Assembly: GCA_015057555.1 (NCBI GenBank)
Contig: SVEC01000012.1
Span: 1-64,000 of the forward strand
Length of the DNA stretch: 64,000 bases
Direction: 5' to 3'
Source of the DNA: Lachnospiraceae bacterium
GTDB taxonomy: Bacteria; Bacillota; Clostridia; Lachnospirales; Lachnospiraceae
In this document: one piece after another, positions 10,799 to 57,900 of the stretch
Layout: each line of letters starts with the position of its first letter
Position numbering within the stretch: position 1 is the stretch's first letter
Program-made: the position numbers and the translations under genes
The notes under the pieces: generated by a model
Told to the model about the DNA's origin: nothing
What the model saw: only the letters and a program-made list of their open reading frames with translations
The model's database searches: none

Positions 10799-11932
10799 AT
10801 GCTTTTAATAAAAAATGGAACTCTATATACCATGGAAAAGGACGAGGCAATCCGAGCAGACTTGCTGATAGATAATGGCAAGATTGCTCGGATTTCTTCG
10901 GATATAGAACCTACTGAGAAGATGGAGGTTATTGACGCAACCAATAAGCGAGTCTATCCAGGCTTTATAGATGCCCACAGTCATATAGGAATTTCGGAGG
11001 AGAAGAAGACTCCTATAGGGGATGAGTGCAATGAGGGAACCACACCTATAACTCCTCACATAAGGGCTATAGATGGAGTAAATCCTATGGACAGCGCATT
11101 TCACAATGCACTTGCTGCGGGAATTACAGGAGTTATGGTGGGGCCGGGTAGTGCAAATCCTATCGGTGGCCAGTTTGCATTTATCAAGACATACGGTAGA
11201 AAGATAGATGATATGGTGGTGCTGGCGCCGGCGGCTATTAAGATTGCCTTTGGTGAAAACCCTATGAACAACTATGGTCCAAATGGAAATATACCATCCA
11301 CCCGTATGGGAATTGCGGCGCTGATTAGAGAGGAGCTAAGCCTGACCAAGGCATATTTTGAAGATGAGAATTCCGGTGGAGATGCATTTCACATGGAGTG
11401 CTACAGGGAGCTGTTCGAGGGAAATATACCACTTAAGGCTCATGCTCACAGGGTGGATGACATATATACGGCTATGCGTATAGCCAAGGAGTTTGGATTG
11501 AAGATTACATTGGACCACTGCACAGAGGGACACCTGATAGCTGAGGATATAGCGGAGAGCAGATTTCCAGCAATAGTTGGACCATCCCTGGCATCTCGCA
11601 ACAAGGACGAGGTTAGCCTTATGGATTTCAAGACACCGGGAATACTCCAGAAGGCAGGAGTGCTGGTGGCACTTACCACGGACCACCCGGTATCACGAAT
11701 TCAGTATCTGCCACTATGTGCAGGTCTTGCCGCCAAGGAAGGAATGGGTGAGTGGGGCGCACTTCGTGCCATAACCATAGACGCAGCCCGTATCTGCGGA
11801 GTGGATAATCGTTTGGGAAGCTTGACTGAGGGGAAGGATGCTGACATAGTAATCTACGATGGGAATCCACTTGAAATTGCGCCCTCTGTGGTGGCTACCA
11901 TTGTAAATGGAAAGGTTGCGTGGAAACCGTAA
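10799..11932 (+). CDS. Imidazolonepropionase-like amidohydrolase
   Basis: 377 residues, ATG 10799 after CCGGAGG. Composite amidohydrolase fold: N-terminal beta sandwich (MLLIKNGTLYTM), the metal-binding HxH in FIDAHSHIG, a later KAHAHRVDD and DHCTEGH for two more His ligands, and the catalytic Asp in TTDHPVSRI. The C-terminus closes the sandwich (GKDADIVIYDGNPL). Such enzymes hydrolyse cyclic amides or remove blocked groups from peptides; the substrate is not determined. It stands alone, ending at a terminator at 11960. Confidence 0.85.
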   Translation: MLLIKNGTLYTMEKDEAIRADLLIDNGKIARISSDIEPTEKMEVIDATNKRVYPGFIDAHSHIGISEEKKTPIGDECNEGTTPITPHIRAIDGVNPMDSAFHNALAAGITGVMVGPGSANPIGGQFAFIKTYGRKIDDMVVLAPAAIKIAFGENPMNNYGPNGNIPSTRMGIAALIREELSLTKAYFEDENSGGDAFHMECYRELFEGNIPLKAHAHRVDDIYTAMRIAKEFGLKITLDHCTEGHLIAEDIAESRFPAIVGPSLASRNKDEVSLMDFKTPGILQKAGVLVALTTDHPVSRIQYLPLCAGLAAKEGMGEWGALRAITIDAARICGVDNRLGSLTEGKDADIVIYDGNPLEIAPSVVATIVNGKVAWKP

Positions 11933-11959
11933 TTTTACAATTCAAAGCTACATTGACCA

Positions 11960-12006
11960 AAGTCTGCTAATTAGTTATAATTTTAACAGTTAGTAGACTT
12001 TTTTGG
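11960..12006 (+). terminator. Terminator between amidohydrolase and histidine kinase
   Basis: AAGTCTGCTAA pairs with TTAGTAGACTT with one G-U, followed by TTTT. Confidence 0.7.
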
Positions 12007-12020
12007 TATTGAGGGAACAT

Positions 12021-14402
12021 ATGAAGAATAGAAAAATGAGTACAACTATAACATTGTCCATACTGTTGGTAATAACCATATGTATAGCCTTGTTATATAT
12101 AATTGCAAATAAAAGCATGACCTCTGAGATGAAGGAATCAGAGATGGAGGCATTGCATAATTCCTTAAGCGTGGAGACCAGCATTATCAAGGAGTATATC
12201 TATCATCAGGAGGATATGCTTATAGCCTTCAGCAATGAAGTGGAGGTAATAGAATTCCTTAAGGATCCTAATAATGAGGAGAAGAGGCTTCGGGCTCAGA
12301 AGCACACAGAGGAATACTATGGAAGACTTAAGAATTGGGAAGGTCTATACATAGGCGAATGGAATACCCACGTCATAGCCCACTCTGATGAAAATATAGT
12401 TGGAATGACCACCCGTGAGGGAGAGCCCCTCAAGGAACTGCAGGATGCTATGCTTGAAAGAGGCGGACTTTATAACGCAGGAATAATAGTATCACCGGCA
12501 TCGGGGAAGCTTATACTATCACTGTATTGCCCAGTGTATGATTATGATGGAGAGACTATTCTTGGCTATGTAGGCGGTGGTCCCTTTGTGGAGGAATTAA
12601 AGGGCTTGCTGGCACCTGCGGAGAAGCAGGGCGCAAGCTACTATATGATAAATGTAAATACAAATATGTGCTTGCTGGCTCAGGATGAAGCTATGATAGC
12701 TACAGAGATACAGGACAAGCTGCTCCTTTCTGTGGTTCAAAGGATTAATGAAGGCCAGGGTGAACAAATAGGCGATATAGAATATTATGATGATGAGCAG
12801 GGAGCTTCTGTAGCTGCCTACCAGTACATTTCCGATTATGGATGGGCATTAATATCCTGTAACAGCGAGGCGGATATTTATGCGGACATTAATCAGAATA
12901 TGGACATGTTGGCATATATTTGTGTAGCAGCAGTTATAATCATCGTAATTCTGTGTTGGGTGGTTATAAGGGTAAGCACAAGGCCCCTTAAGCACGTGGA
13001 GAAGGCCATAGTTCAGCTAGAACAGATGAACCTGGAAAAGGACCCTATGCTGGACAAATACATAGATGGTAAAAGTGAAGTAGGGCAGATAGCAACTGCC
13101 ATAGATTCACTATATGATTCCATAGAGGATTTGCTTAAGGCGGAGTCAGATAAGCAGGCTGCCATAGCAAAGAATGAATCCAAGGACAGATTCTTGGCAA
13201 ATGTATCCCATGAGATTCGTACACCTATGAACGTAATAATGGGTATGAATCAGATGATATTGCTGGAAAACAAGGACCAGGGAATTCAGGATTATGCTAA
13301 TAGCATAAAGAACTCAAGTCAGCACCTTATGGAGATAATCAACGATATACTTGATTTTTCCAAGATAGACTCTGGTAAGCTTCAGATAGTGGATAAGGAA
13401 TATGAGGTGTATCCATTATTGCAGGAGATTACTATGGGCATGGATGCCATTATGAAGCAAAAGAATTTGGAGTTTGTTGTTACTATAGATGAAGTATTCC
13501 CTAAGGTATTAAAGGGTGATAAGAAACGTATAAAGCAGATATTAAACAACCTTTTGTCAAATGCGGCAAAATACACCGACCAGGGAAAGGTTACATTTAC
13601 AGCAAAGGGTCTTAAGTCTGAGGAAGGATTCGCTCTGGTGATATCTGTAGAAGATACAGGAATAGGAATTAGGCCAGAGGATATGAATAAGGTATTCGAT
13701 AGCTTTGCCCGAGTGGAGATGAACAAAAACCACTACAAGGAGGGTACCGGTCTTGGGCTTCATATAACCAAGGAATTGGTGGAATGTATGGGAGGTAGGA
13801 TAGAGCTTACCAGTGAGTACGGAAAGGGCAGCTGCTTTACAGTAACTCTGCCACAGGAGGTAATAGATGAGTCTGGTGAAGAGTCGGTTGTTATGGAGAC
13901 GGTGGCTGAGGAGAGAGAAGAGCTGGAGGAGAGAGTTCAGCAGTTGGAGGAGAAACAACTAGAAGATGGAGTTCTGCAACCAGAGAATTTGTCTCCGCTG
14001 ACAGCTTCCGAACCAACAGATACCCCACCAACCGCCAAGCTTCTGGCAGTAGACGACAATGATATGAATCTCAAGATAATAACTGTATTCTTAAAGAATT
14101 CGGGGATTCAGGTAGACACGGCTTCAAGTGGCCAAGAGGCCATTGATATGACCAAGACTACCACCTATGATCTAATCCTTATGGACCACATGATGCCAGA
14201 GGTGGACGGTGTGGAAACCTTGCACAGGATACGTGAGGATGAAGAAAACCTTAACCGTCAGACTAAGGTAATAGTCTTAACTGCAAATGCCGTTGCAGGC
14301 GCCAGAGAGGATTATCTGAAGGAAGGATTTGAAGAGTACCTGACCAAGCCAGTGGTGAAGGAGAAGCTGGAGGAAGTGGTTGGAAGGTATGTGAATACGT
14401 GA
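12021..14402 (+). CDS. Hybrid sensor histidine kinase with receiver domain
   Basis: 793 residues from ATG 12021; GAGGGA is the nearest ribosome site. Transmembrane helix at about 9-29, an extracellular dCache-type sensor region to about 295, second helix at about 300-320, then a HAMP-like linker. The kinase core has phospho-acceptor H397 in SHEIRTPMN and an ATPase domain with DTGIGI and GTGLGLHI boxes. A Glu-rich linker leads to a receiver domain whose phospho-acceptor is D722 in LMDHMMP, with the KP motif near the end. Signal and output are unknown: there is no separate response regulator beside it, so phosphorelay to a distant Hpt or regulator is likely. Confidence 0.9.
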   Translation: MKNRKMSTTITLSILLVITICIALLYIIANKSMTSEMKESEMEALHNSLSVETSIIKEYIYHQEDMLIAFSNEVEVIEFLKDPNNEEKRLRAQKHTEEYYGRLKNWEGLYIGEWNTHVIAHSDENIVGMTTREGEPLKELQDAMLERGGLYNAGIIVSPASGKLILSLYCPVYDYDGETILGYVGGGPFVEELKGLLAPAEKQGASYYMINVNTNMCLLAQDEAMIATEIQDKLLLSVVQRINEGQGEQIGDIEYYDDEQGASVAAYQYISDYGWALISCNSEADIYADINQNMDMLAYICVAAVIIIVILCWVVIRVSTRPLKHVEKAIVQLEQMNLEKDPMLDKYIDGKSEVGQIATAIDSLYDSIEDLLKAESDKQAAIAKNESKDRFLANVSHEIRTPMNVIMGMNQMILLENKDQGIQDYANSIKNSSQHLMEIINDILDFSKIDSGKLQIVDKEYEVYPLLQEITMGMDAIMKQKNLEFVVTIDEVFPKVLKGDKKRIKQILNNLLSNAAKYTDQGKVTFTAKGLKSEEGFALVISVEDTGIGIRPEDMNKVFDSFARVEMNKNHYKEGTGLGLHITKELVECMGGRIELTSEYGKGSCFTVTLPQEVIDESGEESVVMETVAEEREELEERVQQLEEKQLEDGVLQPENLSPLTASEPTDTPPTAKLLAVDDNDMNLKIITVFLKNSGIQVDTASSGQEAIDMTKTTTYDLILMDHMMPEVDGVETLHRIREDEENLNRQTKVIVLTANAVAGAREDYLKEGFEEYLTKPVVKEKLEEVVGRYVNT

Positions 14403-14440
14403 TAATAATTGGTCTAGAGGGGAAATCTTTGGACCACCGT

Positions 14441-14473
14441 AGGCGGGAAGAATTTCCCGCCTGTTTATTTGTT
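14441..14473 (+). terminator. Terminator after histidine kinase
   Basis: AGGCGGGAA pairs with TTCCCGCCT around loop GAAT, followed by a T-rich stretch. Confidence 0.8.
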
Positions 14474-14487
14474 AACTGGTGAAAAAA

Positions 14488-14516
14488 TTGACATTTGATC
14501 AAATATAATGTATACT
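14488..14516 (+). promoter_or_regulatory. Sigma-A-type promoter for the hicA operon
   Basis: TTGACA at 14488-14493, a 17-base spacer and TATACT at 14511-14516 give a near-consensus promoter 41 bases before hicA. Confidence 0.8.
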
Positions 14517-14536
14517 GCAACTAAGAATTAGTTGCA
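14516..14536. promoter_or_regulatory. Perfect palindrome overlapping the -10 end, likely HicB operator
   Basis: TGCAACTAA-GAA-TTAGTTGCA has exact 9-bp arms and starts at the last base of the -10 box. HicB antitoxins with ribbon-helix-helix domains autorepress through such sites, so binding by the downstream HicB is the likely use. Confidence 0.6.
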
Positions 14537-14556
14537 AAGAGGTGAGGCCATATATA

Positions 14557-14814
14557 ATGAGCAAAGTGGATAAGGCAAAGGCTAGAATAAAATCTAAGCC
14601 AAAGGATTATACTTATACAGAAGCAAAAACATTATTATCTCAGTTGGGATTTGAAGAGTATAGTAAAGGAAAAACATCAGGTTCGAGAGTTAAATTTTAT
14701 AGAAAAGAAGATCAAAAGGTAATATTGCTACATAAACCTCATCCTGGAGATGTAATGAAGTTAGGGGCAGTAAAAGAACTAGTGGATTTTTTGAGCGATT
14801 TAGGAGAGATATAA
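14557..14814 (+). CDS. hicA: HicA family toxin (mRNA interferase)
   Basis: 85 residues from ATG 14557, chosen over the in-frame GTG at 14542 because AAAGAGGTGAGG lies directly upstream. The dsRNA-binding-like fold is recognisable in TYTEAKTLLSQLGFEEY, KTSGSRVKFYR and the terminal HKPHPGDVMKLGAVKELVDFL. The catalytic His of HicA is most likely in the LLHKPHPG motif. HicA cleaves mRNA when free of HicB. It overlaps hicB by one base (TAATG) and opens the operon. Confidence 0.9.
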   Translation: MSKVDKAKARIKSKPKDYTYTEAKTLLSQLGFEEYSKGKTSGSRVKFYRKEDQKVILLHKPHPGDVMKLGAVKELVDFLSDLGEI

Positions 14815-15311
14815 TGAATAATATATTAGAATATAAAGGGTATCATACAAAAGTAGAATTTGATTCACATGATCTAGTACTAAGAGGAAAAATTGAAGGA
14901 ATTAATGATTTAGTAAATTTTGAATGCGAAAATATTAATGATGTGAAGAATGCATTTGAGGAAGCAGTTGATGATTATTTGGAGTTTTGTAAAGAAGTAG
15001 GCAAGGAACCAGAGAAAGAATATAAGGGAACATTTAACATAAGAATAGAGCCTGAATTACATAAGAAGATAGCAGTTTTGGCAAGTAAAAGAGGAGAAAC
15101 ATTAAATTCAACTGTACAGAGAGCCATAGCGGAATATGTACTAAGTGAAAGTACGAAGGATAGGGTGTTAAGAACTACAATAAAAATATTAGCAGAAGCA
15201 ATGAAAACAGAAACTAAATACGAATATGAAAAACCTGCAAAAAAAGCAGAAGGAAACATACTTATGTTTCCAAATGTTAAGATGGAATACAGAGAGGAGA
15301 TGGTGAATTAA
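14814..15311 (+). CDS. hicB: HicB family antitoxin with long C-terminal extension
   Basis: 165 residues. The partial RNase-H-like domain is present (LEYKGYHTKVEFDSHDLVLRG, then AVDDYLEFCKEVGKEPEK), followed by a ribbon-helix-helix DNA-binding segment (GTFNIRIEPELHKKIAVLA). HicB proteins of this type usually end near residue 110-125; this one carries about 45 more residues, finishing with a hydrophobic patch (NILMFPNVKMEY). Such tails act as chaperone-addiction regions in toxin-antitoxin-chaperone systems, and the next gene looks like a SecB-type chaperone. Starts and ends with one-base TAATG overlaps, implying tight coupling. Confidence 0.85.
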   Translation: MNNILEYKGYHTKVEFDSHDLVLRGKIEGINDLVNFECENINDVKNAFEEAVDDYLEFCKEVGKEPEKEYKGTFNIRIEPELHKKIAVLASKRGETLNSTVQRAIAEYVLSESTKDRVLRTTIKILAEAMKTETKYEYEKPAKKAEGNILMFPNVKMEYREEMVN

Positions 15312-15730
15312 TGATTAGTAATTTTGCAGAGTGTTTTGTACCAGAGCAGGAGTTTTATTTAGATAAAATATCATATAATAGAATAGAAAAGAATGAAGAG
15401 ACACAAGAATATTTATTGAATTGCATAGATAGCCTAGAAGCAACAGTGATTGAGGATAAGGTTAATTTAATTGTAAGACGTACAGTTAGATTTGAGCCAC
15501 AAGAGATATTTGAATTAACAATTTCGTTTGGCGTTGTGTTAAAGATTAAAGAAGAAAAACAAGTTGAATATGATTGGAATTCAATTAATTTAGCAGATGA
15601 ATTTCAAATGAATGGAAATTTTGTTCTAGATAATATTATGAGTAGAATTTCATTATTAGTGGCAGAAATAACATCTTCATTTGGGCAAAATCCAATTATT
15701 GTACCACCGATGATTGCGCAGAAAAACTAG
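15311..15730 (+). CDS. SecB-like chaperone, candidate third gene of the HicAB module
   Basis: 139 residues starting inside the hicB stop (TAATG). The layout suggests a SecB fold: an early strand (FYLDKISYNRI), a central strand pair (FELTISFGVVLKI), and a C-terminal helix followed by a proline motif (ISLLVAEITSSFGQ, then IIVPPMIAQ) that matches where SecB has its helix and LAPVNF-like end. SecB-like chaperones in TAC systems bind the antitoxin tail and control toxin release. The identification is by pattern only and no search was run. An unrelated hypothetical protein is the main alternative. Confidence 0.6.
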   Translation: MISNFAECFVPEQEFYLDKISYNRIEKNEETQEYLLNCIDSLEATVIEDKVNLIVRRTVRFEPQEIFELTISFGVVLKIKEEKQVEYDWNSINLADEFQMNGNFVLDNIMSRISLLVAEITSSFGQNPIIVPPMIAQKN

Positions 15731-15746
15731 GGCGAGGAAAAGAAAG

Positions 15747-15986
15747 ATGAAAACATTGAATGAATATCTTGATTTACCGTATCGTATGGAGATAGCTGAG
15801 GATAAATATGAGGGCGGATTTGTGGTTTCCTTCCCTGATTTGCCAGGCTGCGTGACTTGTGGTGAGACTATTGAGTCTGCAATTGCAAGTGCGATGGATG
15901 CTAAGAGAGCATGGCTCGAAGCTGCTATAGAAGATGGAATAGAAATATTTGAGCCAGATAGTTTAGAGGCTTTTGAAGGTGATTAA
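15747..15986 (+). CDS. Second HicB-like protein (no adjacent HicA)
   Basis: 79 residues from ATG 15747, with GAGGAAAAGAAAG upstream; the longer frame from 15714 overlaps the previous gene and has no site. The HicB-like fold is clear: YRMEIAEDKYEGGFVVSFPDLPGC, then GETIESAIASAMDAKRAWLEAAIEDG. It lacks a DNA-binding domain and no second hicA is nearby. It follows the SecB-like gene by 16 bases, so it probably rides in the same transcript, as an orphan antitoxin or a regulator. Confidence 0.8.
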   Translation: MKTLNEYLDLPYRMEIAEDKYEGGFVVSFPDLPGCVTCGETIESAIASAMDAKRAWLEAAIEDGIEIFEPDSLEAFEGD

Positions 15987-16040
15987 GGAATGATTAAGGA
16001 ATTGTAATAAATTATTGCTGTAAATATGCGTGTAAATTTG

Positions 16041-16069
16041 TTGTATAATTTATCGCGATCGTGTATAAT
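16041..16069 (+). promoter_or_regulatory. Promoter for the Phd/RelE-ParE pair
   Basis: TTGTAT at 16041, a 17-base spacer and TATAAT at 16064-16069. The spacer carries the GC-rich near-palindrome TCGCGATCG, a candidate antitoxin site. Confidence 0.55.
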
Positions 16070-16100
16070 ATAATTAGTTAAAAAGAAAGGTGGTATGATT

Positions 16101-16361
16101 ATGCCAAATATAAAACCAATATCAGATTTGCGAAATTATACATCGGTTATAAATGAAGTTGCATATGGGAACAGAGTATATCTTACCAGGAACGGACATG
16201 GGCAGTGTGCCATTATAGATATGAAAGAACTTGATGAATTAGATAAGCTCAAAGCACTTTCACAGTTAATGGGTAAATTAAGTGAGGCCGAATTATCTAT
16301 ACGTAACGAAGGCACTATATCTGCAGATGAATTAGAGGCAGAATTGGGGGTAGCAGATTGA
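16101..16361 (+). CDS. Phd/YefM family antitoxin
   Basis: 86 residues from ATG 16101, which has AAGGTGG seven bases upstream; the in-frame ATG at 16095 is too close. The N-terminal DNA-binding fold is typical (IKPISDLRNYTSVINEVAYGNRVYLTRNGHGQCAIID), followed by an acidic toxin-binding tail. It pairs with the toxin at 16358, whose TTG start overlaps this stop by four bases. Confidence 0.85.
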   Translation: MPNIKPISDLRNYTSVINEVAYGNRVYLTRNGHGQCAIIDMKELDELDKLKALSQLMGKLSEAELSIRNEGTISADELEAELGVAD

Positions 16362-16705
16362 AAAAGCTTGAATACTCACAAATTGTAAGACGCAAACTTA
16401 AAAAACTGAGATTGCAGTTGAACAGTGAATTTGGTGCAGAAGTATCAAAAAGTGCTATAAAAAAGATAACTGACGCAGCAAGAGGTCTTGAAGAGTTTGC
16501 GGAAAAGGGAGTATCTGTATCTGCAATGTATGGAATAGATTGTGACTATAGGTATTTGTATGTGAGTCATAATTACTTGTTCTATATAATTGAAGAAAAT
16601 AGAATCATAATTGCAGAAATGTTTGACGATAGGGAAGATTTTATGTATAAATTGTTTGGGGTAAAAACGACTACAGAAGATGTAGAAGAATATTGGGATG
16701 AGTAG
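16358..16705 (+). CDS. RelE/ParE family toxin
   Basis: 115 residues with a TTG start overlapping the antitoxin stop (TTGA). The RelE/ParE layout is visible: N-terminal helices (YSQIVRRKLKKLRLQL), then the antiparallel sheet (DYRYLYVSHNYLFYIIEENRIIIAEMFDDREDF). The last strand and ERD-like residues resemble members that cleave mRNA, but ParE-type gyrase poisoning cannot be excluded. The acidic C-terminus (TTTEDVEEYWDE) extends beyond the fold. Confidence 0.8.
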   Translation: MKKLEYSQIVRRKLKKLRLQLNSEFGAEVSKSAIKKITDAARGLEEFAEKGVSVSAMYGIDCDYRYLYVSHNYLFYIIEENRIIIAEMFDDREDFMYKLFGVKTTTEDVEEYWDE

Positions 16706-16803
16706 AAATAATTGAAGATTAGATAGTATGTGATAAGAAAGGGTATTTGCACCATCCTTTTTATTGCATTTTGTCGCAATGTAACAAAATGTAACGATTT
16801 CTC

Positions 16804-16835
16804 TTGACGGGGAATACAGTCGGTGTTATACTGTA
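16804..16835 (+). promoter_or_regulatory. Promoter with overlapping TACAGT-N9-ACTGTA dyad
   Basis: TTGACG at 16804-16809, a 17-base spacer and TATACT at 16827-16832. TACAGT (16815-16820) and ACTGTA (16830-16835) form a dyad across the spacer and -10, a likely repressor site, perhaps for the XRE regulator that follows. Confidence 0.6.
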
Positions 16836-16887
16836 CTCATAAAAAGAGGTTTATTCGCTCTTTGAGTCGAGGACTTGGGAAGGAGGC

Positions 16888-17622
16888 ATGATGGTGGAAG
16901 CTACTATCGAGAATAAGCTTCATACGGATACACAAAAGGAATTGTTATACAAACTTATAACAAAAGCTTGTGGTCCGAGAAGCCTATCCGAATTTGCTAA
17001 ATCTTGTGGTATTTCTCCAGCGCATGTATGTCGTATTAAGAATGGTATGAAACCAACAAAAAAGATAATTATGCGTATGCTTAGCGATGCTTATGTTAAG
17101 GATATTGGAATGACATACGAGGAATTTTATATAGCGGCAGGCATTGATGATAAAGCAGAAGTAGAAGAGGCACAAAGATTTGAAAAAGTGGTTTCAAAAC
17201 AAAGGAACACAAAGGCTCTTGGTATGGTTGCAAAAAAACTCATGGGAAGTGATTTAAAGTATCAGTTGCTTTCTATGAACGATAATCATGATGTTGACTT
17301 CGCATTTATGATTATTCAAGGTCGTAAAAAAACAAAATGGAACTTTGTAATGAATTATGAGAACCTGAATTCGTGTGATAATCGAAGCGTAAACGCTATC
17401 TATTACAATTTGGGTAGATTACTCTCATTCCCTTATGCTAAAGATGAACAGTATACTATGCTGTTCGATAGTGAGAGTGAATACGAAAGAATGATAAAAT
17501 TAGTCAACAATGAGCAGGTTCTAGCAAAGCTTTCAGTTGTTTTACTTGACGATGAAAATATGCAAATTAAGAAGGAGGCTTTTTTTGGCCCGGAAAAGAT
17601 AGAGATGTCTCTATCTGATTAA
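16888..17622 (+). CDS. XRE-like helix-turn-helix regulator
   Basis: 244 residues, start taken as ATG 16888; ATG 16891 and GTG 16894 are equally near the GGAAGGAGG site. The DNA-binding domain is at about 23-60 (SLSEFAKSCGISPAHVCRIKNG). The rest is soluble with no recognised motif. Families with this N-terminus and a long C-terminal domain are common in mobile elements and gut Firmicutes genomes. The gene has its own promoter and dyad, so self-regulation is plausible. The small gene at 17671 is 48 bases downstream. Confidence 0.75.
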   Translation: MMVEATIENKLHTDTQKELLYKLITKACGPRSLSEFAKSCGISPAHVCRIKNGMKPTKKIIMRMLSDAYVKDIGMTYEEFYIAAGIDDKAEVEEAQRFEKVVSKQRNTKALGMVAKKLMGSDLKYQLLSMNDNHDVDFAFMIIQGRKKTKWNFVMNYENLNSCDNRSVNAIYYNLGRLLSFPYAKDEQYTMLFDSESEYERMIKLVNNEQVLAKLSVVLLDDENMQIKKEAFFGPEKIEMSLSD

Positions 17623-17670
17623 AATGGAATAACCACAATTGAATAAAAAAATAATAAAGGAGCTTCAGCT

Positions 17671-17931
17671 ATGAGAGTGATTAATGAAAAGCTTCTTGAA
17701 ATAGTATTTGATAAATTAAGTGATGTGGAGGTAAATACTATTAATGGAGCAAATTATCAGGCGAAGGCGAAGCTGCTAGAACAACTTAAGAAAGAACTCA
17801 TTTATGAGGATAATATCGAGACTAGAAAGGTCTTGGTTGAAAAAATGGATGATCTTAAAGAAGAATTATCTGCAATAAGAGAAATAGCGAATATAGAGTC
17901 TATCTTAAAGATGGATTTCTTTTTTGAATAA
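17671..17931 (+). CDS. Small hypothetical coiled-coil protein
   Basis: 86 residues, ATG 17671 after AAAGGAGC. It is charged and largely helical, with a probable coiled coil (LEQLKKELIYEDNIETRKVLVEKMDDLKEEL). No family recognised. It follows the XRE gene closely and may be its partner. Confidence 0.6.
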   Translation: MRVINEKLLEIVFDKLSDVEVNTINGANYQAKAKLLEQLKKELIYEDNIETRKVLVEKMDDLKEELSAIREIANIESILKMDFFFE

Positions 17932-18060
17932 GAAACCATAGTTGGTTCTAGCACATCTCGTGCTTCCATCCGTGCAGAGGTGCCATGTAAATTATGGCAC
18001 CTTAACCTGCAAGGATAATTAAGGAGATGAGCTAGATATGAAAAGAAGGAGGTATATTAT

Positions 18061-18221
18061 ATGTCGTATGGTCAAAAAATTCAGAAACATTTCAATTGGA
18101 AGCCACAATGATTTGAATTGATGAAATTGTTGAAACGTTACTCGAAAAAATAGACATACTCGTTTGTGTCACGAAGGTTAATTTAAAAATTTTTTCACTG
18201 ATTGTGAGTCGAGCCCCGTGA
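18061..18221 (+). pseudogene. Possible small gene broken by a frameshift
   Basis: ATG 18061 has a strong AAGAAGGAGG site and begins MSYGQKIQKHFNWKPQ, then stops. The other frame continues as IDEIVETLLEKIDILV to a stop at 18219. The two halves would make one small protein if a single base were restored. Family unknown; low confidence. Confidence 0.25.
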
Positions 18222-18331
18222 TGAATATGAAATTAAAGCGTAATTAAATGGTGTCTAATGTAACATCCTTTGTTATCCGAAATTACTGGGTGTAACATAG
18301 ACATATCGATACAATTTTGAAATTTTATATA

Positions 18332-18383
18332 AAGACCAGATAGTAATCAAAAACATGATGCTATCTGGTCTTATTGTTTTTTT
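18332..18383 (+). terminator. Rho-independent terminator
   Basis: AAGACCAGATAG pairs with CTATCTGGTCTT, followed by ATTG and a T run. Confidence 0.85.
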
Positions 18384-18414
18384 GTTAACAATCTATGTGG
18401 TGAAAAACAAATTG

Positions 18415-18443
18415 TTGACAAGAGCGTTATTAAATGTTATATT
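18415..18443 (+). promoter_or_regulatory. Sigma-A-type promoter for the DUF6076-like gene
   Basis: TTGACA at 18415-18420, a 17-base spacer and TATATT at 18438-18443. Confidence 0.75.
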
Positions 18444-18500
18444 GTGTTTACAATCAGTAATACAGGTTATCAAATGTTAACTAAGAAAAAGGAGGGTTTT

Positions 18501-19442
18501 ATGAAACAACGAACTATAGATGGGTTGGCAGTTATATATGATGGTAAAAGAAATTATGTCCTATATAAAGATATGAAAAAGATGTATGAGCCGGGGGCAA
18601 TGATATGTGAGTATTTGAGATTTTCTCCATACTCTTTAAAAGAAACTATCGATAATGTACCACACTTTTATGACGAATTAAACAAGGCGAATCTTGATGA
18701 AGCTGTATGCTGGCTAAATGATGTTGTATTTGAAAATTATCCGTTAGTAGTTGCAGGTATGATTATTGGTGAAATTGTTGATGGATTAAATCGAGATTAC
18801 AGGAATAAAATAGATGCTGAAAAAAGTAATGAGAGTACGGTAGGGGAAATTATAATAGATTTGTATGATATGTTTATTCAGAGCTATTCACAGTTTGAAG
18901 ATGCCTTTAAAAGATATCTTGAAAATAAATGTGAAGAGGATATCAAAAAATTCCCTTGGCAACTATATGGAGATTACTCCCATTATCAAAATATAAGTTT
19001 TAAGATAATCCGTGATGAAGATAAATTTCAATCGGTTTATACATTTTATTCATCGATGTCATTGTTGCTATTTGAAATAGCTCATGTGATTGACAATAAT
19101 TCGTCTATAGTAAAATGTCAAAATTGTGGATTTTACTTTGTGCCTGAGACAAGAGTTGACACACTATACTGTAGTTATGAATCTCCTCAAAAGCCGGGTA
19201 AGACTTGTAGGAATGTAGGGGCTCAAATAGCGAGAGCTGATAAGGAGAAAAATGATGTAGTAACTAAGGAATACAGGAAAATATACATGAGGTATGTGAT
19301 GCATAATAATCGGCACCCAGACGATGAAGAAAAACAAAAAATGTTTGAAAAACTTACAACTGAGATTAAAATGATGCGAAATAAACTAGCTCATCATGAA
19401 ATAACAATAGATGATTTTTTTGAATGGCTGGACCAGTTTTAG
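18501..19442 (+). CDS. DUF6076-like protein with a zinc-finger segment
   Basis: 313 residues from ATG 18501, set by AAAAAGGAGGG; the frame opens upstream at 18444 without a site. Largely helical, with a four-residue metal site in VKCQNCGFYFVPETRVDTLYC and another Cys (KTCRN) just after. The C-terminal helix (EITIDDFFEWLDQF) is conserved in the DUF6076-like proteins I know from gut Firmicutes. Function is unknown. It is followed by a small zinc-ribbon gene. Confidence 0.6.
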   Translation: MKQRTIDGLAVIYDGKRNYVLYKDMKKMYEPGAMICEYLRFSPYSLKETIDNVPHFYDELNKANLDEAVCWLNDVVFENYPLVVAGMIIGEIVDGLNRDYRNKIDAEKSNESTVGEIIIDLYDMFIQSYSQFEDAFKRYLENKCEEDIKKFPWQLYGDYSHYQNISFKIIRDEDKFQSVYTFYSSMSLLLFEIAHVIDNNSSIVKCQNCGFYFVPETRVDTLYCSYESPQKPGKTCRNVGAQIARADKEKNDVVTKEYRKIYMRYVMHNNRHPDDEEKQKMFEKLTTEIKMMRNKLAHHEITIDDFFEWLDQF

Positions 19443-19453
19443 GAGGTGGAGTT

Positions 19454-19630
19454 ATGAAGATACCAGTGATATGTCCCGCTTGTGAAAAAGCAAGAATTGC
19501 GGATAGAGATGAAGATGTAAAAAATATTGCAGTTCCAAGTAAAGATTTAAGTAATTATAATTGGAAACCAGATTGTTATATTAAGTGTTGGAGATGTAAA
19601 AGAGAGATTGCTCTTAAAAGAGTAGGTTAG
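19454..19630 (+). CDS. Small zinc-ribbon protein
   Basis: 58 residues from ATG 19454 after AGGAGGTGGAG, 11 bases past the previous stop. Four cysteines in two pairs (CPAC and CWRC) form a zinc ribbon; the rest is short and basic. Such small proteins travel with accessory genes. The role is unknown. Confidence 0.65.
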   Translation: MKIPVICPACEKARIADRDEDVKNIAVPSKDLSNYNWKPDCYIKCWRCKREIALKRVG

Positions 19631-19664
19631 GATTGCACTGAGCACGCTGCAAATTAGACAGACG

Positions 19665-19707
19665 AGCCGGGCAAGTAGTTAATTAACTATTTGCCCGGCT
19701 TTTTTTA
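19665..19707 (+). terminator. Terminator after zinc-ribbon gene
   Basis: AGCCGGGCAAGTAGTTAATT pairs almost perfectly with its complement, followed by seven T. Confidence 0.9.
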
Positions 19708-20243
19708 TTTTACGAATTCAATCTATTACATATATGAATTCTGTCTGAAAATTTTAATGATGAAGAAAATCGTTATACCATTATGTAGAGTAATTGTTAT
19801 GCCTACTTACAGATATACATGAGCTCAATTATGAAAACACAATGGTTACCGTTGATTATGGTGGTGGATTTTATTTTTGAGATTTTTCGTCTGATAAAAG
19901 TAGAAAGCGGTTTTTAAAAAAATTTTGTAAAAAAAATATCAATCTAGTCTTAGAGAGATTTTTTATTTCGTCTTACTTAGACTGTGAGATTATTCTCTGC
20001 AAAAATTCTGCCGAGGGGTATGTGTTATACAATCATAGAAACAGTTAAGGTAAGGACCACGTTACCGTTACAAATCATCACAAATTGATGATTGAGAGGG
20101 TTAACATATTTTATAGTCATAAAGTTGTAGCACGACTTAGAAAAATATTTTTTGAAATAATTTTTTTAATTATGCAAAAAACTTGCAGAATTAAAAATTA
20201 TCATGTGTTTACAAAGTAGAGAAAGGGAAGGAGGTGTGTAAGC
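19708..20243. other. AT-rich intergenic region without a gene
   Basis: About 535 bases. No credible frame on either strand, only A/T runs and a short dyad (ATCATCA...TGATGAT near 20080). The last 30 bases hold the ribosome site of the next gene. Confidence 0.6.
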
Positions 20244-20573
20244 ATGGAAGGTAAATTAAGACCAAATGAGCGTCGTGAAGAGCTGATATATGCTCTTTGT
20301 AAAAGACGTAAAGATAAAGTTAAAAATTTAGCATTTGAGTTTAATGTATCTGTTCGAACCATGGAGGACGATATTAAAATTCTTTCGCTTACACACCCAA
20401 TCATAACGCATACAGGCAGATATGGTGGTGGAGTAGAAGTGGCTGATGGATATTACGTTGGTCGTAAATATCTAAAACCAAGTCAGAAAGACCTGTTGGA
20501 AAGATTGTCTGAAACGTTGTCAGGTGACGATTTGGCAACAATGAAGAGCATTTTCTATGACTTTACTTTGTAA
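20244..20573 (+). CDS. HTH regulator, DeoR-like (HTH_11) type
   Basis: 109 residues, ATG 20244 after GGGAAGGAGG. The first 65 residues form a winged helix-turn-helix (RREELIYALCKRRKDKVKNLAFEFNVSVRTMEDDIKILS) with a wing GRYGGGVEV. The ligand domain of full-length WYL/DeoR regulators is absent. Small stand-alone members are common in integrative elements. It precedes a decayed cluster. Confidence 0.7.
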   Translation: MEGKLRPNERREELIYALCKRRKDKVKNLAFEFNVSVRTMEDDIKILSLTHPIITHTGRYGGGVEVADGYYVGRKYLKPSQKDLLERLSETLSGDDLATMKSIFYDFTL

Positions 20574-20630
20574 AAAAATAATAACGAGACCCCCACAGTT
20601 ATCGGAACCGAATGAAGAAAGGATGATTTT

Positions 20631-21021
20631 ATGAAGAAGATATTTATCTGCTCCCCATTCAGGGGAGACATCAAGGTTAATACGGAGAAGGCAAAGCTCT
20701 ATGCTGGCATTCTTGCTAAGGCAGGGAACATACCTATTGCCCCGCATCTTTATTTTCCACAGTTCCTTGATGAGAGTTCAGCAGCAGAGAGAATGCTCGA
20801 TCGAAATGGGTATTCAGCTAATGAATATGTGCGATGAAGTAAGTGTATATGGCTTCAACATAACTGAGGGTATGCACTTTGAACTAAATCATGCAAAAAA
20901 GAAGGGCATACCGATTCGTTTTTATGATGATGAAATGAATCTAGTTAATACAAGTATGTTGCCACTTGATGACAGAGCTACTACAGACTATATAGTTGTG
21001 GTTGAGAGTTTACATCTATAG
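20631..21021 (+). pseudogene. DUF7768/DUF4406-like protein, frameshifted
   Basis: The first frame from ATG 20631 reads KKIFICSPFRGDI and APHLYFPQFLDE, then loses the family at 20795-20801. The family resumes in the next frame as IEMGIQLMNMCDEVSVYGFN and RFYDDEMNLVN to the stop at 21021. One extra base in the CTCGATC segment explains both halves. Family members are nucleoside 2-deoxyribosyltransferase-like and common in mobile elements. A sequencing error would restore a 130-residue gene. Confidence 0.8.
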
Positions 21022-21037
21022 AAGGGAGAAATGATAT

Positions 21038-21502
21038 ATGGTATATGCATTATTAAAGGTTACTGAAGGAGATAAGCTTATTGCTGTCGGGTTAAGAATT
21101 GGTATCAAAATTGTAGTATGGGTTTGCAGGATAGGAGGCTTTATGGATAGGTTTTTAGGAGGCTTTGATGATTATCTCCATGCCCTCGTTGCATTTGTGA
21201 TGATTGATTATATCACGGGATTTATGGCGGCATTTTTTACAAAGAAGCTATCAAGCGAAACAGGATTCAAAGGGATATGTAAGAAGGTAGTCATTTTCTA
21301 TTTGGTAGGTATAGGTCACATAATTGATGCACAAGTTATCGGAAATGGAAGTGTACTTAGAACAGTGGTTATACTTTTCTATCTCTCAAATGAGGGCATT
21401 TCCATCATTGAAAATGTGACCATAATCGGACTCCCTGTTCCCAAAAAGTTGATTAAGGTGTTAGAGCAATTACACGATGATGCAGAAGAAACAGATGAGT
21501 AA
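21038..21502 (+). CDS. Phage-type holin (toxin secretion/lysis holin family)
   Basis: 154 residues; ATG 21038 lies 17 bases past the previous stop with GAAGGGAGA upstream. The sequence DYLHALVAFVMIDYITGFMAAFF starts the family core, followed by two more hydrophobic segments and an acidic tail. Holins of this family are about 140 residues and permeabilise the membrane to release endolysin. The N-terminal 30 residues are longer than usual, and an ATG at 21144 could be the ancestral start. No endolysin follows, so it is probably a relic of a prophage or a mobile element. Confidence 0.75.
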   Translation: MVYALLKVTEGDKLIAVGLRIGIKIVVWVCRIGGFMDRFLGGFDDYLHALVAFVMIDYITGFMAAFFTKKLSSETGFKGICKKVVIFYLVGIGHIIDAQVIGNGSVLRTVVILFYLSNEGISIIENVTIIGLPVPKKLIKVLEQLHDDAEETDE

Positions 21503-21859
21503 GAAAGAGAGGTAGTATTATGAGATTATTAGAAAAACTTTGTACTTAAAGTATATGAAGAAATTGCGACGGAAATAGTGAGAAGAACTATAAATAGTTG
21601 GTTGTACGAAATGTCCACAATAGAGGTTGTATTAAAACTAGAAAAAAATGATAAGAATTGGCTTACGGGAGTTAAAGGGATATTTGAAACAAGACTATCT
21701 TGTTAAACGTATATAAACATAAGAGAATTTTAATTCTAGTATTGATTTTTATGAAAAGGAGAATAAGATAGCAAAGATATACTATGTGTTAAATTATACT
21801 GATAAGAACGGTGTACATAAACATCTAGACATATTCCTGATACCTTGGTGCTAATATTT
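21503..21859. other. Stretch of broken small frames
   Basis: Apart from the fragment at 21520-21706, the region contains only short frames, for example one reading IYYVLNYTDKNGVHKH near 21776. It resembles eroded coding sequence between the holin and the holA fragment. Confidence 0.4.
21520..21706 (+). pseudogene. Small broken ORF downstream of holin
   Basis: ATG 21520 has an AAAGAGAGG site but the frame stops after nine codons. The next frame then runs EEIATEIVRRTINSWLYEM to a stop at 21704. The two parts fit a single small gene with a base missing near 21545. Family unknown. Confidence 0.3.
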
Positions 21860-22381
21860 ATGGAAACTGTTGCAGTTAGACTTCTTTTAGAAAGCGTTAA
21901 TCAGGATATGAATAACATTTCAAATGAAGTGGATAAGCTTATAATTTATTGCAAGGATAGAGGTGCAATAATTACAGCTGACGTAGAGAAAATGTGTGTA
22001 AGTCAGGTGGAAGGTAAGATACTTGAGATGATAGATGCTCTATCAGCAAAGGATGGTAGAAGAGTAATGGCTCTATACGAAGACCTGGTTTATCTAAAGC
22101 ATCCATATAGGGTAATGCTGGCAAATGTAATATCTAACTATAGAAGAACCCTAAAGGTTAGAATGTGTATGGATGAGGGTAAAAGCTTTGTCGATATAGT
22201 TAGTATACTTGAAATTAAGGAATACCCAGCTAAGAAAAATATGGGTTTGGCTAAGAAGTACGATTACAACAGGCTTAAGGAATATGTGGAGAGATGCAAT
22301 CTGGCAGATACCCAGATAAAGACATATGTAATGAATGAAAAGATGGCTATGGATATGCTTTTGACGGACTTGCTGAAATAG
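21860..22381 (+). pseudogene. DNA polymerase III delta subunit C-terminal fragment (holA-like)
   Basis: About 173 residues from ATG 21860, without a ribosome site. It aligns by eye with domains II and III of the delta subunit: NQDMNNISNEVDKLIIYCKDRG, the CVSQVEGKILEMIDALSAKDGRRVMALYEDLV helix pair, and the final KTYVMNEKMAMDMLLTDLL. The N-terminal AAA+ domain (about 150 residues) is absent and the upstream frame shows none of it. It cannot be the cell's clamp-loader delta as such. A duplicated fragment or an element insertion that removed the 5' half explains it. Confidence 0.75.
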
Positions 22382-22428
22382 AATTTCTAGTAACGAAAAA
22401 AGAGACGATGTACTCTTTATTACTTTGC

Positions 22429-23475
22429 CTAGTAATCCCCCTTTATAGCCTTTCTATTCACATATTCCACAAACTTTTCTACCTTCTCCATATCAGGATT
22501 ATCAGGTAGAGATGTAGTCTTAGAAACACGCTCCAGCTCACTCTCATAATGAGCCAGTATATCATAGAACTCCGCTGTAAATGTATGGTCCTCCTTCTGG
22601 AAACCACCATTTCTAATCTTCAGCAAAAGCTCCAAATCATCCACACGATGAGTCTTAATAACACCCTTATCCAAAATATCAATAGCCATCATAAACAAAC
22701 GAATAAGGTGCATAGCATGCTTATTTAGATGGTTATCATCCTTCTTCTTGTTGCGCTTGCCCATGCGGTCATACTCTCTGATAACATTTGTAAGAGTAGA
22801 GAACAAGGTCTCATAATTCCTAAGAGGGTAATGAGTATAGTTAGTGTCAATGAAAATCTCAGTCTCAAGGCCAGGAGTAACAGCCTGGTCAATGTAAAGC
22901 TTCATAGAGCCATATTCAAAATGAGCATGCTTCCGGTTAAAGTCATCCAGAGCATTCTGCACAGACTTCAAAATGTGCTGCTCACGTTCCGCAAGTGGCA
23001 TAGAATCCCTGGCAATAGCGTTCTGCAATCTGCGAAGCTGAGCTCCCGCATACCCACCAAATGACTTAGCCGCCCTCTTAGACAGGAATAAATGGGTGTT
23101 GTCGATTATTTCTTGACCCAGCTTAGTTTTAATCAGATACTGGTCTTCATCCAGCCCCAGAATCTCGCAGGTATTAGGATTACATTCTAAGAGTAGCTTG
23201 ATGATTTTGTTAAATGAGTAGATTACGGTGTCGGCTACTCTGTCCTCAAATTGCTCGAATTCGGTAAGACCGAGAAGGTCGGATGGACGGTTTAGGGTAA
23301 TGCCACGGAAGTCAATATCGCTGTTTTCGTTGTTGGTGCCGTAAGCGTGACTGCCGCCGAGACACAGGAGGATAATGCGGTCTCCTAGGTGTGGGTCGGT
23401 GCGAAGGAAGTCGTAGGCGTGGGTGGACATGAGGTGGGTGAAGTCTGGGGTGTTTGGTTTGGACAAGGGTGTCAC
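22429..23475 (-). CDS. Nucleotidyltransferase of the RlaP-like family
   Basis: 348 residues. GGSHAYGTNNENSDIDFRG near residue 40 is the DNA polymerase beta-type motif G-x-S ... D-x-D, and the C-terminal helical half fits PF10127-like proteins. These transfer nucleotides to an unknown acceptor, and some neighbour RNA ligases, none of which is seen here. The start is uncertain: GTG 23475 is just after AAAGGAA, and TTG 23466 has the more usual spacing. The gene is convergent with the holA fragment. Confidence 0.75.
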   Translation of the reverse strand: MTPLSKPNTPDFTHLMSTHAYDFLRTDPHLGDRIILLCLGGSHAYGTNNENSDIDFRGITLNRPSDLLGLTEFEQFEDRVADTVIYSFNKIIKLLLECNPNTCEILGLDEDQYLIKTKLGQEIIDNTHLFLSKRAAKSFGGYAGAQLRRLQNAIARDSMPLAEREQHILKSVQNALDDFNRKHAHFEYGSMKLYIDQAVTPGLETEIFIDTNYTHYPLRNYETLFSTLTNVIREYDRMGKRNKKKDDNHLNKHAMHLIRLFMMAIDILDKGVIKTHRVDDLELLLKIRNGGFQKEDHTFTAEFYDILAHYESELERVSKTTSLPDNPDMEKVEKFVEYVNRKAIKGDY

Positions 23476-23662
23476 TTCCTTTCTGTGGGGTAGTTTTGTT
23501 CTTAAGGTGATTATAGCATAGAAAGGATGAAATTGGGAAGTTAATAGGACAAGGCGCTTGATAATAGGACAATGTAATGAGTGAAAGCTAGCAGGTATGG
23601 GTGTATAATTTAATTATAAATTGTCGGATAATGTAATTTGTATAGCATAAGTGAGGGTAAGA

Positions 23663-24193
23663 ATGCCAAATATTCTACAGAAGATAGTATATAATTTATC
23701 GATAATAGCTCCACTGTTGATAATGACGTCGATAGTTTGGATTATTCAAAATAATACTTATTGTATTCCAATACTACTAATATCAATAAGTATTTCAATT
23801 ATAATAGGATTTAAAGTTTCGTTTAGATATGCTATGAAACATATGGCTCCAATTATAATAAGAACTGAACAAATTTCGCCACATGATGAGAAGGCATTCT
23901 CGTATTTGCCTACATATCTTCTACCATTTGCCAGTATTGTAATAAAAGAATTTAATCTAATTATACTTTTTTGTATATCTTTACTGATCATATGTGGAAT
24001 GATATTTTGTAATACTGCATTTCCAAATCCTGTATTAATGTTAGGTAGGTATCACTTTTATCAAGTGTCTGCAAATAATGGAGTATCAAATTATTTGTTG
24101 ATATCAAAACAAAAATATAGAAGTAAAAAACAATTAAATTCAGTGTATAGAATGATGGAATTTTTATTAATCGATTCAGAGGAGGTAGAATAA
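23663..24193 (+). CDS. Four-helix membrane protein, possible Kiwa KwaA homologue
   Basis: 176 residues from ATG 23663 after GTGAGGGTAAG. Four hydrophobic helices lie at about residues 10-28, 33-51, 81-95 and 100-117. A conserved-looking tail follows: FPNPVLMLGRYHFYQV, then NYLLISKQKYRSKKQLNSVYRM. This topology and tail are what I expect for KwaA, the membrane subunit of the Kiwa antiphage system. The next start, 1 base after this stop, begins a broken frame whose N-terminus fits KwaB (DUF4868). The assignment is from memory of the family and not searched, so a generic membrane protein remains possible. Confidence 0.45.
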   Translation: MPNILQKIVYNLSIIAPLLIMTSIVWIIQNNTYCIPILLISISISIIIGFKVSFRYAMKHMAPIIIRTEQISPHDEKAFSYLPTYLLPFASIVIKEFNLIILFCISLLIICGMIFCNTAFPNPVLMLGRYHFYQVSANNGVSNYLLISKQKYRSKKQLNSVYRMMEFLLIDSEEVE

Positions 24194-54935: not shown

Positions 54936-57900
54936 AAATATTAACAGGAATTACAATTTTTGCTCTTTGCTTTGGAATGACCGGAGGACCAATTTTGTCT
55001 GCGGAGGATGAACAGGAAGAAATTAAAATAAGAGGCTATGAGATTGTGGAAACAGAGGGAGAAAATTATGGACACATTCCTATAAGCTATACAGTACCTG
55101 TGTCAGAAAGTGATTCAGACGTATTAGATAATTATAATACGGGATTACATGGAAGTGGCACTCTGCCGGCTAGATATGATGCAAGGGATTATGGTTATGT
55201 AACAGCGGTGAAGGATCAGGGATATTATGGTACATGCTGGGCATTTGCAGCTATTAGTTCGGCGGAAAGTGATGCTATTATAGATGGACGTAATTCAAAT
55301 CCTGACTATTCAGAGGCGCAGCTTGCATTTTTTACATATAATCGTGTGGCAGATCCATTGGGAGGTACAACAGGAGATAAGGTCGAGGTAATTGCAGATG
55401 GCGAAGATTATTTATCTATAGGTGGTAACAATTATTATACAACCATGGCATTGGCAAGCTGGATTTCCCCTGCTGATGAGACTACAATGGATTATGATGA
55501 TATAGCTACAAAGTACACAGGTATAACCTCTGTGGATGAAAGCTATGACTATGAAGCCTGTGTGGCACATTTGCAGAATTCTTATTGGATATCTATGAGT
55601 GATCCGGATAGCATTAAGCAGATGATTATGGAATATGGTAGCTTGGATTCCTCCTTATATTACAGTGACGATTATCTGGAAGAGGTTACTGTGGGAAATA
55701 CAACCAAGTGGTTGTTTTATAATCCAGAGGAGTACATACAGAATCATGAGATATCTCTTGTGGGATGGGATGATACCATAGATGCGGATTTATTCTCTAA
55801 AACTATAGACAATGTGGAGTATACACCAGCCGGAGATGGAGCGTGGCTTGTTAAGAATAGCTATGGCGACTATTATCATGATGAAGGTTACTTTTGGATT
55901 TCTTATTATGATACAAGCTTGATGTATACTAATTCATCTTACAATGTTGCCACAGCCTATGACTTTGAGGCAGTGGATAATTACGACTACAATTATCAGT
56001 ATGATGGTTCATATGCTACCTTTGAGGTATATGATGATGATTATAATGAGAGTATATATACTGCAAATGTATTTACAGCTAAGAATAGTGCTCAGCAATT
56101 AGAAGCAGTAGCTTTTTATACAACCTTGCCTAATATGAAGTACAGCATTCAGGTTTACAAGGTGGATGAAGCTGGTACACCTGTGGGAGAAGCACTTCTG
56201 ACAAAGGCCGTAGAAGGCTTGGAGCCTTATAGTGGATACCACACAGTTAAGCTTAATGAGAGAATTATACTTAATGAGGGAGAAAAATTCTCAGTTGTTG
56301 TCAAAAATACAATTACCACAGATGGTTATGTGGGAATAGGAGCCACAGCATTTTTAGATGCCTCTAATGACGATGGTTATCTAAGATACACCTCCTCAGG
56401 TGAATCAGGGCAAAGTTATCTTAGCTTTGATGGTGTTAATTGGGAAGACATGTACGATAGATACGGAGCAAATCTTAGAGTAAAGGCATTTACCAACTAT
56501 AGACCTGTGGAGTCTGTTGCTGTAGAGGAAGACACATATACTATAGGTGTGGGAGAGCAGCTTCAACTATTCGCTACCGTCTCTCCTGAAAATGCAACTG
56601 TTCAGAGTGTGACTTGGTCAGGACTTAATGATATGGTGTTAAGTGTCAGCAAGGATGGAATTGTAACAGGACTTGAGGCTGGAAGTGCCACAGTTACGGT
56701 CAAGACTGTTGATGGAGGAAAGACAGCTAAGTGTACTGTTATAGTAAAGGATAGATACATTACCCCTGACAAGCCAGTATTAAAATCTAGAACAGAGGAC
56801 ACCATAACTGTTGAAGCTGTGGCAGATTGTATCTACTCTTTGGATGGCATTGATTGGCAGGATAGTAATGTATTCACAGATTTGGAGCCGGGTACAGAAT
56901 ATAGTATATATGCCATGATTCCAGGGGATGAATACTATTATCAAAGTGAGCTTAGTGAACCTTTAGTGGTCAGTACATACGATATCATTGAAGCTGTGAA
57001 GCTTAATTACACAGATATAGCCCTTGTGATAGATGAACAGGATACTATTCAACTCAAAGCAACTACTGTTCCGGCTGATGTAAAGGTGGGTACAGTTACT
57101 TGGAAATCTGAAGACGAAAATATTGCAATAGTAGATGAAAATGGTTTGGTAACTGGATTGTCTATGGGAGAGACAAATATAGTGGCCACCTCTGATGCAG
57201 ATGAGCAGATATCTGCTATTTGTAAGGTTGGAGTATACAAGAGATATGCCACACCAAGTGCACCAACATTAGCGTCTAAGACCCATAGCTCCATTACACT
57301 TAGTAAGGTATCTGGGGCAGTGTATTCGAAGGATGGAAAAACTTGGCAGAGTTCAAATGTATTTACGGGACTTAACCCAGAAACAACTTATACATTTTAT
57401 GTGAAGCTACTTCAAAATGGATATTATATGGAAAGCAAAGTTAGCGCGGGCTTAAAGGTGACTACTGCCGAAAAACCATTCGTAGCCCCAGATATCAAGG
57501 TTTCCTATCGTACACACATCCAGTCCTTTGGTTGGGAATATAAGGAAGACGAAGTGACCAAGTGGAAAGCTAACGGAGCTATGTCAGGTACATCAGGTCT
57601 TGCTAAGAGGCTTGAGGGCATCAATATAGTAGTTGCACCTACAACTACCTGTGAGGATTTAGACCTTGGAATTCAGTACACCACACACTGTCAGTCTTAT
57701 GGTTGGTTGCCATGGTCTGCTGATGGTGATATGAATGGAACTGAGGGCGAGGCGAAACGTCTTGAGGCTATTATGATTCAGCTTACAGGCGAGCATAAGG
57801 AACTTTATGATGTATATTACAGAGTTCACGCACAGTCATACGGATGGCTTGGATGGGCGAAGAATGGAGAGCCATCAGGTACAGCAGGGTATGCTAAACG

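Follow-up and report, generated by a model that had tools for sequence, protein, structure and literature searches.

The window analysed here (a 64,000-nt stretch, positions 1 to 64,000 of contig SVEC01000012.1 from the Lachnospiraceae bacterium assembly GCA_015057555.1, which comprises 2.5 Mb and is 87% complete) carries a three-gene operon at 14557-15730 on the forward strand. We consider it very likely that this operon of a gut-type anaerobe is a tripartite HicAB toxin-antitoxin-chaperone (TAC) module, consisting of a HicA toxin, a HicB antitoxin with an extra C-terminal tail, and a third protein with a predicted SecB fold. The assignment draws on the gene order, the families of HicA and HicB, the predicted fold, the co-occurrence, within the examined sets, of a long HicB tail with the third gene, their apparent joint loss, the conservation of an operator-like palindrome, and carriage by phages. 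The same reading had been proposed earlier from the letters of the window; the predicted fold, together with co-occurrence and apparent joint loss of tail and chaperone gene, supports it.

Gene layout and encoded proteins

The operon consists of three open reading frames on the + strand: hicA (14557-14814; toxin, 85 aa, HicA_toxin family), hicB (14814-15311; antitoxin, 165 aa), and the third gene (15311-15730; 139 aa, putative TAC chaperone). The one-base overlaps claimed in the original prediction are present, as both junctions read TAATG and each pair of neighbouring genes has one base in common. HicA scores 34 bits against PF07927 (cut-off 27); in HicB, residues 55-105 score 69.6 bits against PF05534 (cut-off 21). 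These matches place both proteins in the families of type II HicAB systems.

HicB comprises an N-terminal domain (residues ~1-60), a ribbon-helix-helix (RHH) domain (~70-108), and the tail (109-165; codons at 15138-15308, + strand). For the predicted structure (mean predicted local distance difference test score [pLDDT] 71), the best matches in the PDB are to Burkholderia pseudomallei HicB (6g26, E 2.8e-3), with no PDB structure matching at E <= 0.001; the fold comparison thus agrees weakly with the antitoxin assignment. From about residue 109 on, the sequence is variable among relatives. It is predicted to be disordered from about residue 132 (pLDDT < 50 for 132-153 and 155-165) and ends in ...NILMFPNVKMEYREEMVN, with the hydrophobic stretch ILMFPNVKMEY close to the tail end. 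Many HicB tails contain, close to their end, a loose (I)IPF...K..Y stretch. The long tail with a terminal hydrophobic patch, as described earlier, is therefore real, and it represents a putative chaperone-addiction region (ChAD), the C-terminal antitoxin extension of TAC systems which varies in both length and sequence and is absent from two-component relatives.

A comparison of the third protein with SecB at the level of structure had been set beforehand as a check of the assignment, and the model does match SecB. Two aligners both rank SecB chains far above any other fold, and the match spans nearly the whole protein. The top row of VIA-align is SecB-TA from Mycobacterium tuberculosis, itself a TAC chaperone, within 1 Z of Escherichia coli SecB. 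Based on the model, the third protein has a predicted SecB fold yet is outside the PF02556 profile family as defined. Of the SecB-like pattern proposed earlier, the fold is thus retained, while profile searches do not detect it. The gene lies in the same operon as hicAB, with the one-base overlap described above, as is typical of the chaperone gene in TAC systems.

Distribution of the three-gene arrangement

The order hicA-hicB-third gene was found in 24 intact loci (referred to by L numbers), counted with the window and after removal of duplicates; in one of them (L018) the HicA frame is short, and a few of the loci nearly duplicate each other. This arrangement exceeds chance. A scan of genome contigs revealed 26 relatives of the third gene: 17 belong to intact loci (including L018), two follow a HicB which is cut by the contig end (L015, L016), four are truncated chaperone genes (L030, L032, L033, L034), two are without HicAB (L031, L035), and one is a contig-end fragment (L036). 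HicAB lies directly upstream of the third gene in 5/5 viral loci and also on a plasmid of Eubacterium callanderi (L008), which has phage tail-type and holin genes. The viral relatives were obtained from IMG/VR only, and there with alignment queries; a single-protein query gave none, and no phage record from INPHARED matched the third protein. Among 299 genomes of the family, the third gene was matched in seven, six of which have it together with HicAB (the window's own and five others). The seventh match (L007, E 1.2e-4) was rejected as a relative, being located in a 556-aa frame without HicAB which, judged by eye, resembles a dynamin-type GTPase.

Tail and chaperone gene occur together and are apparently lost together

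When 55 HicB proteins were aligned, those with the chaperone gene (n=24) extended 36-63 residues past the RHH domain (window residue 108), compared to 2-25 residues in those without it (n=23), "without" meaning that the fetched locus has no match to the chaperone profile at E 1e-3. The latter set comprises 21 of the best 30 HicB-matched loci (more matches existed) and the plasmid loci L090 and L091. Several chaperone-less loci (e.g., L056, L061, L063, L069) have a short or undetected HicA frame, so that some of them may be remnants rather than working pairs. Rows removed were the window's own copy (L001), L007, L002-L005 (same contigs as L013, L017, L021, and L023), L010 and L011 (contigs of L039 and L040), L039 (nearly the same as L040, from a different viral contig), the TAC loci already counted (L054, L055, L057, L058, L060, L062), the contig-end fragments L015, L016, and L036, and L031 and L035, which have no HicB. 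L020 and L040 were both retained despite identical HicB cores, and L027, which contains N, was excluded from the structure alignment. In a tblastn search of plasmids with HicB, 1118 records matched, none covering 80% of the query; the 20 matches listed of these 1118 all end at HicB residues 105-114.

The four loci with a truncated chaperone gene are instructive. In L033 and L034, when compared to the intact loci L022 and L027, the sequence passes from the start of the HicB tail directly into the middle of the chaperone gene (junction read by eye); the two loci share this deletion as one event. L030 has a second deletion, which lies further down the HicB tail. In L032, HicB stops at the RHH domain and the chaperone gene is reduced to its 3' part. 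Four loci have thus apparently lost the end of the HicB tail jointly with 5' sequence of the chaperone gene, in what look like three events. This fits the logic of addiction: once the tail end is lost, the chaperone becomes dispensable. Such loci are detectable only where some chaperone sequence remains, and joint loss is not proof of addiction.

In a tree of HicB cores (midpoint-rooted), the starred set of 28 rows which contains most TAC loci also includes all four truncated loci, along with two-component L056, L059, L061, and L064; according to the starred branches, the TAC label must have changed at least four times. The branch of L064 is long, and L056 and L061 look partly decayed. The plasmid TAC L008 is found on the other side of the tree, amid two-component rows.

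Promoter region and putative operator

Upstream of hicA, on the + strand, a terminator-like hairpin (14439-14464; 11-pair stem, T-rich tail) is located 3' of a histidine kinase gene and sets the operon apart from it. Three terminator-like sites occur in the scanned region, compared to a mean of 0.5 in shuffles. A sigma-70-type promoter-like site follows at 14488-14516 (+ strand), with TTGACA (14488-14493) and TATACT (14511-14516) separated by 17 nt and 11/12 matches to the consensus. Promoter-like sites are not enriched as a class, since the scanned region has six of them and shuffles have 8.5.

The last base of the -10 element is also the first base of the palindrome TGCAACTA-N5-TAGTTGCA (14516-14536), the putative HicB operator. 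With up to three mismatches, it was found upstream of hicA in 23/23 intact loci tested, where 0.03 would be expected; L018 was excluded from this count due to its short HicA frame. It was also found in 13/19 other loci, namely in 3/3 truncated and 7/13 two-component loci, and in 3/3 loci of the second tailed lineage described below; some of the misses (e.g., L068, L091) have the same arms with a shorter spacer. The exact palindrome occurs at one place in the own genome, which is this operon. With up to three mismatches, the window has one further match (57617-57637, three mismatches; 0.40 expected by chance). According to a review (PMC11594946), RHH-type HicB from B. pseudomallei has one palindromic binding site, which overlaps the -10 element; a word search of the review text returned no mention of SecB or chaperone. 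Given the conserved palindrome and this precedent, HicB autorepression at 14516-14536 is likely.

Proposed mechanism

We infer the following mode of action. HicA would act as an RNase toxin, which the N-terminal domain of HicB would block, and the RHH domain of HicB would repress transcription of the operon from the palindrome that overlaps the promoter. The disordered, partly hydrophobic HicB tail would impose dependence on the SecB-fold protein: HicB would fold and persist only with the chaperone bound to its tail, as described for the HicAB-TAC of Methylomonas methanica and the HigBA-TAC of M. tuberculosis (PMC5105189, PMC6377645). Bound to the tail, the chaperone would keep HicB soluble and safe from proteases. 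When it is titrated away (e.g., by phage proteins or unfolded proteins) or its synthesis stops, HicB would be degraded and HicA freed.

Genomic setting and a possible role in phage defense

The region from ~14.5 to 22.5 kb has a G+C content (GC) of 31-38%, compared to 41-45% in the 2.5 kb upstream and 39% window-wide; for hicA, hicB, and the third gene, it is 29-33%. A DUF7768 gene and a phage holin gene adjoin each other at 20701-21502 (holin at 21038-21502, PF05105, 1.2e-41). This pair resembles a phage lysis module and suggests a decayed phage-like element. Among the phage relatives, L038 and L041 also have genes that look DUF7768-like by eye; the one in L041 is next to the TAC and a holin-like gene. 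Judged from these neighbours, the TAC of the window probably arrived with a phage-like element which has since decayed. No empty site emerged when 21 genomes of the same genus were queried with the upstream kinase: such kinases are present in 21/21, the matches among the rows listed are only partial, and synteny was not followed, so that an insertion is not shown.

The association with phages raises the question whether the module is a phage-derived anti-phage or superinfection-exclusion system, in which the chaperone senses a phage protein and frees HicA, comparable to CmdC and capsid protein in CmdTAC (PMC11618068). This would refine the trigger of the mechanism outlined above and is not opposed to it. 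L009 and L041 are located on phage contigs near lysis genes (viral contig genes were named by eye), L010 and L038 just upstream of terminase genes (by eye, with an HNH-like gene between in L038), and the plasmid copy L008 follows phage holin and peptidoglycan-binding genes; the copy in the window shares its AT-rich stretch with a phage holin gene. However, the same placement would be expected from plasmid or prophage addiction, and none of six proteins tested matched a PADLOC model. We thus regard a defense function as possible but rather unlikely.

Further neighbours of the operon include a HicB-like gene (15747-15986; PF15919, 51 bits, 79 aa), which starts 16 bases past the chaperone gene. 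No hicA was seen beside it, and it had no match in the 25 TAC loci checked. At 16095-16705, a Phd/YefM-like antitoxin gene (23.5 bits, below the Pfam cut-off and above the NCBIfam phd_fam cut-off) overlaps a partner gene, which encodes a 115-aa protein that looks RelE/ParE-like by eye and has no credible family match. The right end of the AT-rich stretch holds the C-terminal half alone of the DNA polymerase III delta gene (holA, 21845-22381); the 87% complete assembly has no match to a second copy. In L064, a 331-aa holA-like frame overlaps the hicB end. No tRNA was found in the window, and no Rfam family matched at the gathering threshold in 11900-24000.

Evaluation of the TAC assignment

Several observations weigh against the assignment as a TAC module. 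For the third protein, the SecB fold is that of a monomer model; the Foldseek query-normalised TM-scores against SecB are modest (0.54-0.62) with 9-14% identity, so that homology to SecB, beyond a common fold, is not proven. PF02556 (SecB) has zero matches in the own genome, no match at E up to 1 for the third protein and six homologues, and no match at E up to 5 for the homologues L031, L035, L008, and L041. HHalign against 11 clostridial PF02556-matched proteins gave a probability of only 8.8%. Further, the position of the catalytic histidine in other HicAs seems, by eye, to be occupied by Arg44 (window 14686-14688) in the TSGSRV motif of the window HicA. Two homologues of the third protein from Clostridia (L031:3977-4390 and L035:3995-4405) are not accompanied by HicAB, and the family is therefore not confined to toxin-antitoxin operons. 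Finally, HicBs with tails of 44-52 residues also occur without a homologue of this chaperone, in L065, L067, L070, and L089 (Rahnella), where a different small gene (121-131 aa) overlaps the hicB end in each case; these were excluded from the comparison of tail lengths.

As for HicA, TSGSRV with Arg44 is invariant in seven aligned HicAs (window and six relatives), SGSR is also found in the HicAs of the two-component loci L059, L064, and L090, and both His59 and His62 are invariant across the seven; these histidines might stand in for the canonical catalytic residue. As for L031 and L035, these are possibly free-standing relatives of the TAC chaperone. In both loci, the genes before the homologue look by eye like those of a peptidase and of AlaX.

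An alternative explanation is that HicAB is an ordinary pair with an incidental HicB tail, and that the third gene codes for an independent SecB-like export or general chaperone which rides along. L031 and L035 would fit, as would the solitary SecB sequences known in Firmicutes (described in PMC4257090). However, in 23/26 contig loci (17 intact, two cut by the contig end, four truncated), the chaperone gene or what is left of it directly follows at least part of hicB, as it does in 5/5 viral loci, and long tails and the chaperone gene co-occur and go missing together. We therefore consider this explanation improbable. Even less credence is given to the idea that the third protein merely resembles SecB (similar four-stranded sheet and helices), e.g., as a HicB stabiliser without chaperone activity: it has no profile similarity to SecB and the PDB sequence search gave no route to it, nor did Pfam or NCBIfam return a credible match, but SecB chains rank well ahead of other folds in both aligners and are matched over nearly the whole protein.

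We thus retain the TAC assignment. The four loci with tailed HicBs and a different third gene (L065:1486-2335, L067:1501-2347, L070:1501-2341, L089:1501-2354) are possibly an independent TAC lineage. Their third genes have no SecB match in Pfam; HHalign with three of them gave a probability of 24% against clostridial SecB (104 columns) and of 0.6% against the window lineage, which is suggestive at most. The third gene of L070 was found in 1/250 family genomes (the copy in G110 is L067 itself) and matched no phage record; that of L089 was found, among plasmids, in its own record only.

Tentatively, and with slightly less than even confidence in the proposal as a whole, we suggest that one HicAB family has chaperone addiction as a detachable module, with tail and third gene gained or lost as a unit several times. 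Besides the window lineage, this would comprise one or more other tailed lineages whose third gene looks unrelated (L065, L067, L070; L089), and repeated returns to the two-component state, some of them through deletions in which the chaperone gene lost its start along with the tail end. SecB profiles would fail to see many TACs of this sort, including phage-borne ones, and the chaperone could be a phage sensor. The naturally broken copies, in which the antitoxin tail end has been lost along with the 5' chaperone part, are ready-made tests of chaperone addiction, and the palindrome provides a direct handle on regulation.

Comparison with known systems

The core of HicA and HicB is alike in two-component RHH-type HicAB systems, as in L059 (from the same family; HicB 63% identical) and in the Leptospira and Acinetobacter plasmid loci L090 and L091. 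The operator palindrome is exact in L059 and has one mismatch in L090; in L091, the arms are the same and the spacer is shorter. Their HicBs end 15, 10, and 6 residues past the RHH domain (L059, L090, L091), and the fetched loci contain no chaperone homologue.

HicAB is one of the three toxin-antitoxin families that PMC5105189 reports for TAC systems, and the same paper describes a HicAB-TAC from M. methanica (Mmet-TAC) which is functional in E. coli. A HicAB version of TAC is thus not new as a kind, which is one correction to the original prediction. The window operon shares with Mmet-TAC the HicAB pair, the C-terminal antitoxin extension (119-159 in Mmet, ~109-165 in the window), and the SecB-like chaperone gene (PMC5105189). 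According to the published description, on which this comparison is based, the Mmet chaperone is ~53% identical to the TAC chaperone from Vibrio cholerae (PMC5105189), whereas the window lineage has no PF02556 match and, unlike Mmet-TAC, was found in genomes of Clostridia type, on viral contigs, and on a single plasmid from Eubacterium. The TAC of M. tuberculosis, HigBA1-SecB-TA (5mtw; described in PMC6377645), has a HigBA rather than a HicAB pair, and its chaperone shows 9% identity over the aligned part.

A published survey found TAC chaperones by PF02556 and by a second approach for those missed by the profile; the occurrence of SecB-like genes in Gram-positives, phages, and plasmids had been noted in 2014 (PMC4257090). 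A profile-only search would miss the window lineage, as it lacks a PF02556 match. The limited set of literature searched contains no recognisable description of this lineage.

E. coli CmdTAC likewise combines a toxin and a SecB-like chaperone with an antitoxin whose long C-terminal part is unstructured (PMC11618068). It differs in that its toxin is an mRNA ADP-ribosyltransferase, and in that phage sensing is demonstrated, the toxin being released when newly made capsid protein competes for the chaperone (PMC11618068). Phage carriage of the window lineage provides a testable link to phage sensing of this kind. The operon is a far-diverged version of a known TAC type, which phages carry as well; what seems new, within the literature searched, is a profile-invisible Lachnospiraceae and phage lineage with a conserved operator and a joint gain-and-loss pattern.
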